Below, in pieces: positions 12,330-55,813 of a stretch of 64,000 nucleotides of DNA; within the stretch, counting starts at the first letter, position 1; each line of letters begins with the position of its first letter. The notes beneath the pieces were generated by a model. The model was not told where the DNA came from. It searched no databases and was given only the letters and a program-made list of their open reading frames with translations. Source of the DNA: Halobaculum sp. CBA1158 (GTDB lineage: Archaea > Halobacteriota > Halobacteria > Halobacteriales > Haloferacaceae); assembly GCF_021431925.1 (NCBI RefSeq), contig NZ_CP090371.1:930001-994000 (forward strand), given 5' to 3'. A program made the position numbers and the translations under genes.

Positions 12330-12547
12330 GCCGGTCCGGTCGCGACGCCGGCCCGGTCGATCGTCGCTCGGCATTCGGCCACGACCGACGCTCCGTCACC
12401 GGGCGGACGCTCCACCACCGGACGACCGGTACGTGCCCAGCCGCAACCCACCGGCACGTTCTCGGAGACCCGCGTGGAACCGACGCCGTGTACGTCGTGG
12501 AGGCACCGGTATCCCTGCGCGGTCACACGTACCGTACCGTACCGCGA

Positions 12548-12705
12548 GCGAGCCAGCCGACGGCTGGCGAGCGAGCGGCCTTTTGATCATCATCAGAATC
12601 GCGGAGCGATTCTGATTAGCAGTCGGATTCTTCGAATCCGACCGCATGAACGGGTTTTGGCGGGGGTCGAGCGCGCCTTCGGCGCGCGAGGCCCCGGTGA
12701 AAAGC
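12548..12705 (+). repeat. Multi-hairpin intergenic element, copy 1
   Basis: Four consecutive hairpins fill the convergent gap between the lipoprotein gene and korB: GCCAGCC/GGCTGGC (12552-12568); an 11-base perfect stem ATCAGAATCGC/GCGATTCTGAT with a 3-base loop (12592-12616); a 9-base stem GTCGGATTC/GAATCCGAC (12622-12642); and GCGCGCC/GGCGCGC inside a GGGG/CCCC stem (12662-12695). Linkers such as GAGCGAGCGG with TTTTGA, and CATGAACGGGTTTT, recur in copy 2 at 55526-55690 in the opposite orientation. The rest of the gap (12330-12547) shows only a small GTACC triplet repeat near 12530 and no gene. Role unknown. Confidence 0.8.
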
Positions 12706-12711
12706 GGTTCG

Positions 12712-13578
12712 TTAGTAGAACTCTCTCACGAGGTCCATCGCGCCCTCCGGCGCGCCGGAGTCGTCGATGTCGGCCATGCTGGAGTCGAGCCCGTGGGTCT
12801 CCTCGTACGGCACCGATTCCTCGTCCTGGTAGAGCACGCCCATGTACTCCTTGTCGGCGTCGAGGACCTTCTCCTTGGCCGCCTCGCGGTCGTGCGGGTC
12901 GTAGTCCGTCTCCTGCAGGTCCACGAGGGAGTCGCGGAAGTAGTCGTACGTGTCCACGTCGTTGAAGGTGACGCACGGCGAGAACACGTTGACGAAGCCG
13001 AAGCCGTCGTGCTCGATGGCCTTCCGGACGATCTCCTGGTGACGCAGGGCGTCAGAGGAGAACGACTGGGCGATGAACGTCGCGCCCGAGGCGAGCGCGA
13101 GCGCGAGGGGGTTGACGGGCGGCTGCTGGGGCCCGTCCGGCGTCGTCGCCGTCTCGAAGTCCTCCCGGCTGGTCGGGGAGGCCTGCCCCTTCGTCAGCCC
13201 GTAGATCCGGTTGTCCATCACGACGTAGCTCATGTCGACGTTGCGGCGGACGGCGTGGACGAAGTGGCCCGCGCCGATGGAGTAGCCGTCGCCGTCGCCG
13301 CCGGCGACCATGACCTCGAGGTCGGGGTTGGCCATCTTGACGCCCGCACCGACCGGGAGCGCGCGGCCGTGGACGCCGTGGATCGCGTAGCTGTGCATGT
13401 ACGTGCCGATCTTGCCCGAACAGCCGATGCCGGCGACGACGAAGGTGTTGTCGGGGTCGTTGCCCGTCTCCGCCAGCGCCTTCATCATGCCGTTCATCGT
13501 CCCGAAGTCGCCGCACCCGGGACACCACGTGGGCTGCTTGTCGGATTTGAAGTCGGTGAATTTGACCTGGGAACTCAT
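12712..13578 (-). CDS. korB: 2-oxoacid:ferredoxin oxidoreductase, beta subunit (2-oxoglutarate type)
   Basis: 288 residues. The thiamine diphosphate-binding beta subunit: WCPGCGDFG (about 18-26, two of the Cys that hold an iron-sulfur cluster), GIGCSGKIGTYMH, and the TPP/Mg motif GGDGDGYSIGAGH with the MDNRIYGLTKGQ block. With KorA it oxidises a 2-oxoacid plus CoA to acyl-CoA and CO2, reducing ferredoxin, and replaces the NAD-linked 2-oxoacid dehydrogenase complexes. The ATG overlaps the korA stop (ATGA). I favour the 2-oxoglutarate over the pyruvate enzyme because its partner is about 590 residues, shorter than haloarchaeal PorA as I recall it. A T4 run follows the stop on the minus strand. 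Confidence 0.88.
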   Translation of the reverse strand: MSSQVKFTDFKSDKQPTWCPGCGDFGTMNGMMKALAETGNDPDNTFVVAGIGCSGKIGTYMHSYAIHGVHGRALPVGAGVKMANPDLEVMVAGGDGDGYSIGAGHFVHAVRRNVDMSYVVMDNRIYGLTKGQASPTSREDFETATTPDGPQQPPVNPLALALASGATFIAQSFSSDALRHQEIVRKAIEHDGFGFVNVFSPCVTFNDVDTYDYFRDSLVDLQETDYDPHDREAAKEKVLDADKEYMGVLYQDEESVPYEETHGLDSSMADIDDSGAPEGAMDLVREFY

Positions 13579-54457: not shown

Positions 54458-55519
54458 ATGCGCGTCGCGGTCGTCTCGATGGACACGGTGGGAACGCGGG
54501 ACGCGCCCGCCACCCGCCGGACGCGACGCGTCGCCCGCGGACTCGCCGACCGCGGCCACAACGTCCATTGGCTGTGTGCGCGGTGGTGGGGCGGAGAGAT
54601 TCCACGGTTCGAGCACGAGGGGATCGAGTATCACGCCGTCACCGACGACCCCGGCCCGGGGCGGTTCCGCTCGAAGCTCCCGTTCCTCCTCCGACGCGTC
54701 GACCCCGACGTGATCCACGCTGTCTCGGTCCCGCCCGGCCACGCCACCACGGCGCGAACGACCGCGCGGGTGTTGCGCGTCCCCGTCGTCGTCGACTGGT
54801 GGGAGCGCGACCCCGAGCGCGGGTCCGGTCGGCAGTACCGTAAGGCGGCGACCGGAGCCGACCGCGTGACCGTCCCCTCGGAGACGGTGCGCACCGCCGT
54901 CCGCGAGCACGGCGCGAGCGACGTGAACGTCCGAGTGATCCCCGAGAGCATCGACTTCGATCTCGTCCGCGAATCAGGGGTCGACGACCGATTCGACGTG
55001 GTCTGGGCCCGCGACCTCGACGGCGACGCCAACGTCGGAGAGTTCCTCCTCGCGCTGGCGGAGCTTCGCGACCGCGACTGGAACGCCGCCGTCGTCGGCG
55101 ACGGCCCCGCCCGCGACGACGCCGAGCGGACGGCCGCAGACCTCCGGATCGACGACCGCGTCCACTTCCTCGGCGACCTCTCCGACGAGGAGCTGGTGCC
55201 GGTGTTGAAGGGCGCGCACGTGTTCGCTCAGACGGCGACCTACGAGCCGTTCGCGACTGAACTCCTGTGGGCGCTGGCCTGTGGCTGTGTCGGCATCGTG
55301 GAGTACCAGGCGGGGTCGTCGGCCCACGAGGTCGTCGAGGGCCTCGACCGCGGCCGGCTGGTGACGAACCCCCAGGAGTTGGCCGACGAAATCGTCGCCT
55401 GCGGCGGCCTGTCTGAGTGGGAGATCAACGAGGGGTTCGCGGGGTTCGACCACGCCGAGGTGCTCGAGGAGTGGGTCGAGTGTTACGAGGCCGTCGTCGA
55501 CGACTACGGCTGGCTCTGA
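54458..55519 (+). CDS. GT4-type glycosyltransferase
   Basis: 353 residues, GT-B fold. N-terminal half: MRVAVVSMDTVGTRDAPATRR, RRVARGLADRGHNVHWLCA. C-terminal half: the donor site region VHFLGDLSDEELVPVLKGAHVFAQTATYEPFATELLWALACGCVGIVEYQAGSSAHEVV (about 228-285) with the ExFxxxxLEAxAxG-like pattern. Donor and acceptor unknown; a role in surface glycan or lipid glycosylation is possible. Six bases after its stop the multi-hairpin element copy 2 begins. Divergent from the S9 peptidase. Confidence 0.83.
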   Translation: MRVAVVSMDTVGTRDAPATRRTRRVARGLADRGHNVHWLCARWWGGEIPRFEHEGIEYHAVTDDPGPGRFRSKLPFLLRRVDPDVIHAVSVPPGHATTARTTARVLRVPVVVDWWERDPERGSGRQYRKAATGADRVTVPSETVRTAVREHGASDVNVRVIPESIDFDLVRESGVDDRFDVVWARDLDGDANVGEFLLALAELRDRDWNAAVVGDGPARDDAERTAADLRIDDRVHFLGDLSDEELVPVLKGAHVFAQTATYEPFATELLWALACGCVGIVEYQAGSSAHEVVEGLDRGRLVTNPQELADEIVACGGLSEWEINEGFAGFDHAEVLEEWVECYEAVVDDYGWL

Positions 55520-55525
55520 ACCTCC

Positions 55526-55690
55526 TTTAGGGGGGTCCTCCTCGCTCACTCCGTTCGCTCGCTCGCCGAACCCCCCTAAAACCCGTTCATGTCGTTGGAT
55601 TCCGGAGGAATCCGACTACTGACGGGAAATCTTCGATTTCCCGTAATGTCAAAAATGCCGCTCGCTCGCCAGCCGAAGGCTGGCTCACTC
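55526..55690 (-). repeat. Multi-hairpin intergenic element, copy 2
   Basis: On the minus strand the order matches copy 1: GCCAGCC/GGCTGGC (55668-55684), a 10-base perfect stem ACGGGAAATC/GATTTCCCGT with 3-base loop (55622-55644), GGATTCC/GGAATCC (55597-55613), then CATGAACGGGTTTT and a final TTTAGGGGGG/CCCCCCTAAA stem (55526-55580). The first stem, linkers and third stem resemble copy 1 in sequence; the second stem is unrelated in sequence yet keeps its shape. The rest of the gap to 55813 shows no gene. Confidence 0.8.
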
Positions 55691-55813
55691 ACGGAACTAC
55701 CGTTAACGACTTCCGCACCGCAGCTGTGGTCTCTCTACGATCTCACCGATAACTGCGTCGCCTACGCCTGGCGTCCGTCCCGCTCCGGTCCCCCGCCACG
55801 GATTCGATCGACG

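Follow-up and report, generated by a model that had tools for sequence, protein, structure and literature searches.

A hairpin cassette with a U-tract and exchangeable palindromes positioned at stop codons of haloarchaeal genes

Archaeal transcript ends are thought to require little beyond a U run. At the intergenic terminators of Haloferax volcanii, a T stretch is combined with a TC dinucleotide that is conserved, and termination occurs at C (PMC7237163); aCPSF1, a factor that terminates transcription in archaea, binds to U4 tracts (PMC8716108). From Haloquadratum, 52-bp terminal-only PATEs with two palindromes, small mobile repeats entering palindromes and 'SwitchRepeats', i.e. two different repeats alternating at one position between strains, have been described (PMC3119063). 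Bacterial REP/BIME elements, tagged by GTAG or CGTC, are extragenic mosaics of palindromes located 3' of genes, some of them near stops (PMC3733652). Inverted DNA-uptake signals can form terminators (PMC1852404). In these, too, a short conserved sequence is repeated in inverted form behind genes. The element presented here resembles terminator, REP and PATE in its working and, as a whole, fails defining features of each.

The window, i.e. the whole analysed stretch of 64,000 nucleotides from Halobaculum sp. CBA1158, harbours two copies, at 12548-12705 and in the reverse complement of 55526-55690 (Table 1). Both had been recognized in an initial annotation, and their parts follow the common order described there. 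The middle stem (hairpin C) is indeed perfect in both copies while its sequence differs (ATCAGAATCGC/GCGATTCTGAT vs. ACGGGAAATC/GATTTCCCGT, 3-nt loops). The natural reading direction is the opposite of the annotated one: the proposed G-rich final stem is in fact the leading one and immediately follows the stop codon of the adjacent gene. The element had also been placed outside any gene; it abuts the stop codon at copy 1 and covers the last two bases of the stop codon at copy 2. An additional helix (GAAC/GTTC plus TTTT/AAAA) encloses the G-rich stem, and the two middle hairpins represent one optional module (B-C). This helix had been overlooked, as had the strongest regularity of the element, its fixed position and orientation at stop codons. 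The gene-sense strand folds at -87.2 kcal/mol (copy 1) and -68.6 kcal/mol (copy 2), in both cases better than 200 of 200 shuffles (z -6.76 and -4.13, respectively). The 14-mer CATGAACGGGTTTT occurs twice in the window, against a chance expectation of 0.06 at up to two mismatches, and AAAACCCGTTCATG is identical in both copies and has nine matches in the genome. Orthologues of both host genes are present in 11 of 11 genomes of the genus.

Table 1 Features of the two window copies, and loci with facing copies
Feature	Position	Strand	Basis or remark
Copy 1 host gene, beta subunit of 2-oxoacid:ferredoxin oxidoreductase	12712..13578	-	Pfam TPP_enzyme_C 9.7e-31, PFO_beta_C 1.5e-20
Copy 1 host gene stop codon TAA	12714-12712	-	abuts element
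Copy 1 P1 5' arm GAAC	12707..12710	-	one base after stop; fold; covaries with 3' arm across genera
Copy 1 U-tract TTTT (P2 5' arm)	12700..12703	-	9-12 nt after stop; invariant columns in alignment A1
Copy 1 hairpin A, G-rich, exchangeable, type III	12659..12699	-	fold and sequence comparison
Copy 1 conserved AAAACCCGTTCATG (P2 3' arm, internal loop, P1 3' arm, ATG)	12645..12658	-	
Copy 1 optional module B-C	12588..12644	-	present/absent between sister species at exact ATG boundaries; covariation
Copy 1 hairpin B	12622-12642	-	part of module B-C; followed by spacer TGCTAA
Copy 1 hairpin C	12593-12615	-	part of module B-C
Copy 1 second A-tract	12581..12584	-	on the other strand, U-tract behind hairpin D
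Copy 1 hairpin D (CCGCTCGCTCG...CTCGCTCGCGG)	12542..12578	-	fold; kept in genus copies
Copy 2 host gene, glycosyltransferase family 4	54458..55519	+	Pfam Glyco_transf_4, Glycos_transf_1
Copy 2 host gene stop codon TGA	55517-55519	+	
Copy 2 P1 5' arm GAAC	55518..55521	+	overlaps stop TGA; fold pairs UGAAC with GUUCA
Copy 2 shortened U-tract CTTT	55525..55528	+	sequence
Copy 2 hairpin A, type V	55529..55577	+	fold and sequence
Copy 2 conserved AAAACCCGTTCATG	55578..55591	+	
Copy 2 module B-C	55592..55648	+	differing hairpin C (ACGGGAAATC type)
Copy 2 hairpin D	55658..55694	+	sequence and fold
Facing copies, L011	C1:2503744-2504560		own genome
Facing copies, L054			G004
Facing copies, L281			G123
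Facing copies, L291			G406

Read in gene sense, the stop is followed by P1 (GAAC), a CNC loop, TTTT, hairpin A, AAAA, CCC, P1' (GTTC) and ATG. Behind this first ATG, either (C)CAAAA follows directly, or the two-palindrome module B-C intervenes and closes with another ATG; hairpin D comes next and is succeeded by the tail TACAACTGCTAGTG, which fades out. P1, P2 (TTTT/AAAA), A, B, C and D form separate helices in the folds of both window copies. The imperfect inverted repeat of 11 nt that P1 and P2 constitute surrounds hairpin A alone, and the element extends beyond it. Module B-C is 55-59 nt long, missing from most copies and flanked by short ATG repeats, and its presence or absence is clean between sister species. 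The U-tract, located about 10 nt behind the stop, reads TCTTTT or CCTTTTT; its positions T8-T11 are invariant in alignment A1, and CTTT is found in a few copies, among them copy 2. A second A-tract, unpaired in the fold, lies 9 nt after P1 in most copies: of 125 copies, 83 have a run of A4 or longer at most 20 nt from P1 and another 23 at most 90 nt from it (106 of 125), as compared to 20 of 1239 control windows of 20 nt (1.6 %). Downstream of hairpin D, several species carry expanding minisatellites, CCGCACCGC(TTC)CGCGACAGC (L145, L147, L002).

Position relative to the stop codon was determined for the 101 copies in which an acidic reading frame could be recognised upstream; they belong to many unrelated genes from several genera. 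P1 starts between -3 and +10 nt from the stop in 81 of these, mostly at -2 or +1. The upstream gene runs in sense direction in 75 of 77 classified copies, and the downstream gene is directed variably (25 same, 26 opposite); copies that several species carry at the same gene do not represent independent observations in these tallies. Convergent neighbours are hence not enriched, and a need for bidirectional termination arising from them was discarded as an explanation. Overall, about ten genes per genome carry the element right behind the stop. The hosts are unrelated and include, according to Pfam, PhoU, a Cdc48-like AAA ATPase, a MenB-like enoyl-CoA hydratase, a thioredoxin-reductase-like protein, aldehyde ferredoxin oxidoreductase, a short-chain dehydrogenase and a beta-CASP nuclease, the latter probably being aCPSF1 as judged from domains and sequence. 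The enoyl-CoA hydratase ending PWHY, the beta-CASP gene and a gene ending QANIF serve as hosts in different genera or families. For Natrialbaceae-type copies, the distance to the preceding gene ranges from 9 to more than 100 nt, or a clear host gene is missing. Among Natrialbaceae and Halorubrum-like copies away from stops (L164-L181, L257, L321, L323, L327), CAGTACAG often stands directly ahead and may mark the true left end of a mobile form. The convergent pair PhoU/Cdc48-like ATPase harbours two facing copies in two genera.

Further copies in haloarchaeal genomes, as predicted by the initial annotation, were retrieved by exact word as well as covariance model searches. CATGAACGGGTTTT was detected nine times in this genome, with no additional site at one mismatch and none for the reversed control word; in total, the genome contains 9-10 copies. 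The same word, exact and with up to one mismatch, is present in 10 of 11 genomes of the genus. Beyond the genus, it was found in Halolamina, Halorarius, Natronolimnohabitans and Halobonum, next to chance matches in bacteria. A covariance model of the frame (R2), which replaced a first automatic model of only four pairs (R1), yielded matches in 65 of 119 genomes at the level of the taxonomic family and in 90 of 214 genomes at that of the order, with up to 24 copies per genome; its E-values are rough, and the weakest matches need not be members. Scanning a phage collection revealed no match, and a plasmid scan three partial ones.

The shape is maintained while the sequence changes, as had been noticed from the two window copies: further copies retain the pairing, and P1 and module B-C covary. 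P1 is paired at 100 % and P2 at 97.5 % in alignment A1 (slid controls at most 67 %), with two of the four P1 pairs changing on both sides. Across genera, P1 adopts at least five pairing states (GAAC/GTTC, CGAC/GTCG, CAAC/GTTG, CCA/TGG and CTA/TAG). One scan for these states demanded pairing and is therefore by itself no proof of it; pairing was not strictly demanded of the covariance model matches. A single departing Halobaculum copy combines CGAC with GTTC. Within module B-C, both partners changed in 13 of 20 pairs (105 cells of this kind) and 97.7 % of cells are paired, compared to at most 47 % in slid controls. Departures from pairing comprise 9 G-T and 7 A-C in module B-C, and 62 G-T and 71 A-C in hairpin A. 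A-C departures being about as frequent as G-T, these counts do not point to selection on pairing of the sense RNA, and this explanation was dropped. The same covariation would result from a DNA palindrome replaced as a whole, or from one in which either arm serves to correct the other.

Comparison of related species revealed exchange of hairpins at fixed sites. At the glycosyltransferase site, nine of 11 species possess the element between conserved flanks, hairpin A occurs in four types, and one species has a 25-nt gap in place of the element. The sisters G007 and G009, with coding flanks 95-99 % identical, share six element sites; hairpin A is replaced at four of these (46-70 % identity, differing lengths), at three sites one sister has module B-C and the other lacks it, and two-palindrome modules are nested in the loops of A or D at several. 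In one instance, hairpin A has been flipped at an unchanged site (L117 vs. L104 and L111). Hairpins of the same site in different species have a similarity of 0.685 as compared to 0.632 for random pairs (reached in 0 of 300 permutations), a weak but significant site memory. Within one genome, hairpin similarity does not exceed that of random pairs (0.616 vs. 0.632), and gene conversion within genomes was rejected as the only cause on this basis. Same-site hairpins being slightly more alike than random pairs and same-genome ones not, a pool of hairpin types common to the genus is indicated. Within the genus, matches to module B-C lie only inside elements, and its interpretation as a free genomic repeat was dropped accordingly. 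Another two-palindrome module (AAGACTCGCT...TCTTCCGTG-TTCTCGTTCGCTTCGCTCACGAGAAC) is also located within loops of intergenic hairpins elsewhere and has short CTTCGG-like repeats on its flanks (L304-L318 in the genus; e.g., L307, L312, L305). At L184 (G256:C59), a stretch starting with GGCTTTGTTGAAATCCTC and resembling an insertion-sequence end follows AAAACCCGTTCATG after the conserved ATG, exactly where module B-C would start.

The initial annotation had offered two interpretations, a selected structure or a palindrome-exchanging mobile element. Its observation is confirmed and its interpretation partly supported: palindrome exchange at fixed sites is visible between sister species, and orthologous sites devoid of the element, which it had suggested looking for, exist in G001 and G008; no sign of selection on folded RNA and no transposition of the whole element with target duplication were found.

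How the element relates to the systems outlined above can now be specified. As is typical of archaeal U-tract terminators, a run of four or more U closely follows the stop, apart from few CTTT exceptions, and the element shares with these terminators the intergenic location a few nt behind the stop and the TC ahead of the T run. However, the latter need no conserved flanks or hairpins, whereas here the 14-mer, the covarying enclosing helix and the exchangeable palindromes are kept. Haloquadratum PATEs and small mobile repeats are likewise short and noncoding, with near-terminal palindromes, two-palindrome units of 52-57 bp, insertion into palindromes and exchange at one position between strains; in contrast to both, the present element is fixed in position and orientation at stops and conserved over many species and genera. 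PATEs combine two near-terminal palindromes with the absence of a target duplication and a length insufficient for a transposase; module B-C, though flanked by short ATG repeats, is similar in form, and the whole element does not fit. IS605 ends were not recognised among the module B-C matches of the genus, which lie inside elements. Unlike REP/BIME elements, with which it shares the extragenic location 3' of genes and the mosaic of palindromes, the element has a low copy number instead of a high one, is a multi-hairpin cassette with a conserved enclosing helix and lacks the unpaired tetranucleotide tag, the GTC at the start of hairpin B being paired (pairs 3-25 to 5-23). DNA-uptake signals are abundant genome-wide, as opposed to the about ten copies observed here. 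HF1-type halovirus intergenic repeats were dismissed because they are AT-rich promoter repeats. Rfam 15 gave no match in the 64-kb window and, save one chance match, none above gathering score in ten loci. A literature search of limited reach retrieved no paper with the exact 14-mer and no haloarchaeal repeat of like make, only papers on PATEs and small mobile repeats, REPs and halovirus repeats. The element thus belongs to a haloarchaeal family without Rfam entry or a published description found in this search.

The interpretation we favour, and to which we assign about even chances, is a transcript-3'-end (U-tract) cassette that is fixed at gene ends and exchanges its palindromes at the DNA level. 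By analogy to the T-stretch terminators of Haloferax, in which TC and a T run are combined as in TCTTTTC here, and to U-tract-binding aCPSF1, the tracts would terminate transcription. With the cassette placed at the stop in gene sense, the mRNA would be released at, or cut near, the U-tract. On the opposite strand, the second A-tract would act as a U-tract directly behind hairpin D and halt transcription from the far side before it enters the gene, while the P1-P2 helix around the G-rich hairpin would hold the cassette together. Conservation of the second A-tract would be accounted for by such a two-way cassette, stopping transcription in both directions; recombination or small mobile palindromes may exchange the hairpins. 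As the U-tract lies ahead of hairpin A, an mRNA ending there would lack this hairpin, the pairing of which would then have to act at the DNA level or in read-through RNA, or be irrelevant. Speaking against this reading are the CTTT of copy 2, the restriction to about ten genes per genome and the Natrialbaceae-type copies off stops. Moreover, the precise stop-codon address and the conserved 14-mer exceed the needs of a U-tract terminator. A scan for bacterial-type terminators (GC-rich stem, followed at once by at least five T in eight) found neither window copy, the tracts being 4 nt long. A bacterial-type terminator-like match inside the oxidoreductase gene (window 12848-12866) is expected by chance.

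Somewhat doubtful, yet to be taken seriously, is a selfish small mobile repeat akin to the haloarchaeal PATEs and small mobile repeats, which would insert at stops, where it does least harm, with its internal two-palindrome modules also mobile and hopping into hairpin loops. Near-identical short copies occur in distant genera, in Halolamina and in Natrialbaceae, and copies within one genome are often alike; the element-free sites in G001 and G008, the exact presence or absence of B-C between ATG repeats, a module (E) in hairpin loops inside and outside the element, and the Haloquadratum precedent of 52-bp PATEs and palindrome-targeting small mobile repeats (PMC3119063) also agree with mobility. 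Less compatible are the sites common to species and genera with their hairpin site memory, the confinement of B-C to elements in the genus, and the near-invariable orientation to the gene, which is unexpected for free insertion; neither target duplication nor a linked transposase was seen at the loci examined. The mobile and transcript-end readings can both be true, if mobile palindromes were captured as gene-end signals.

Unlikely, in our estimate, is a stop-codon-addressed haloarchaeal cassette system in which a putative dedicated enzyme would recognise the P1/U-tract/A-tract frame and exchange, invert or insert whole palindromes at the DNA level, such that gene ends would be re-terminated from a common hairpin pool faster than the flanking genes diverge. 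We regard as still less probable a translation-linked 3' element in the manner of REPs near stops, the P1 helix of which would slow termination or recycling and thereby tune gene expression. P1 does overlap or abut the stop, and work cited in the RepRanger paper has REPs within 15 nt of the stop stalling ribosomes and lowering translation (PMC12306157). However, the P1 helix would be absent from the mRNA if ends fall at the U-tract inside P2, and the lack of a G-T excess over A-C in B-C and hairpin A indicates that substitutions do not favour RNA folding. A separate structured noncoding RNA or riboswitch-like 3'-UTR element, suggested by the strong fold and the covariation, is very improbable in view of the missing Rfam match, a hairpin A that is wholly different between sister species at the same gene, one hairpin tolerated in inverted orientation and, again, no G-T excess.

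Should the reading as a recombining transcript-end cassette be true, an order-wide element with an exact stop-codon address, a covarying frame and hairpins that exchange freely would mean that at least some gene ends in archaea consist of specific cassettes that recombine. Sister species would then allow terminator function to be compared in a natural setting, and the element could point the way to a new palindrome-handling activity in haloarchaea.
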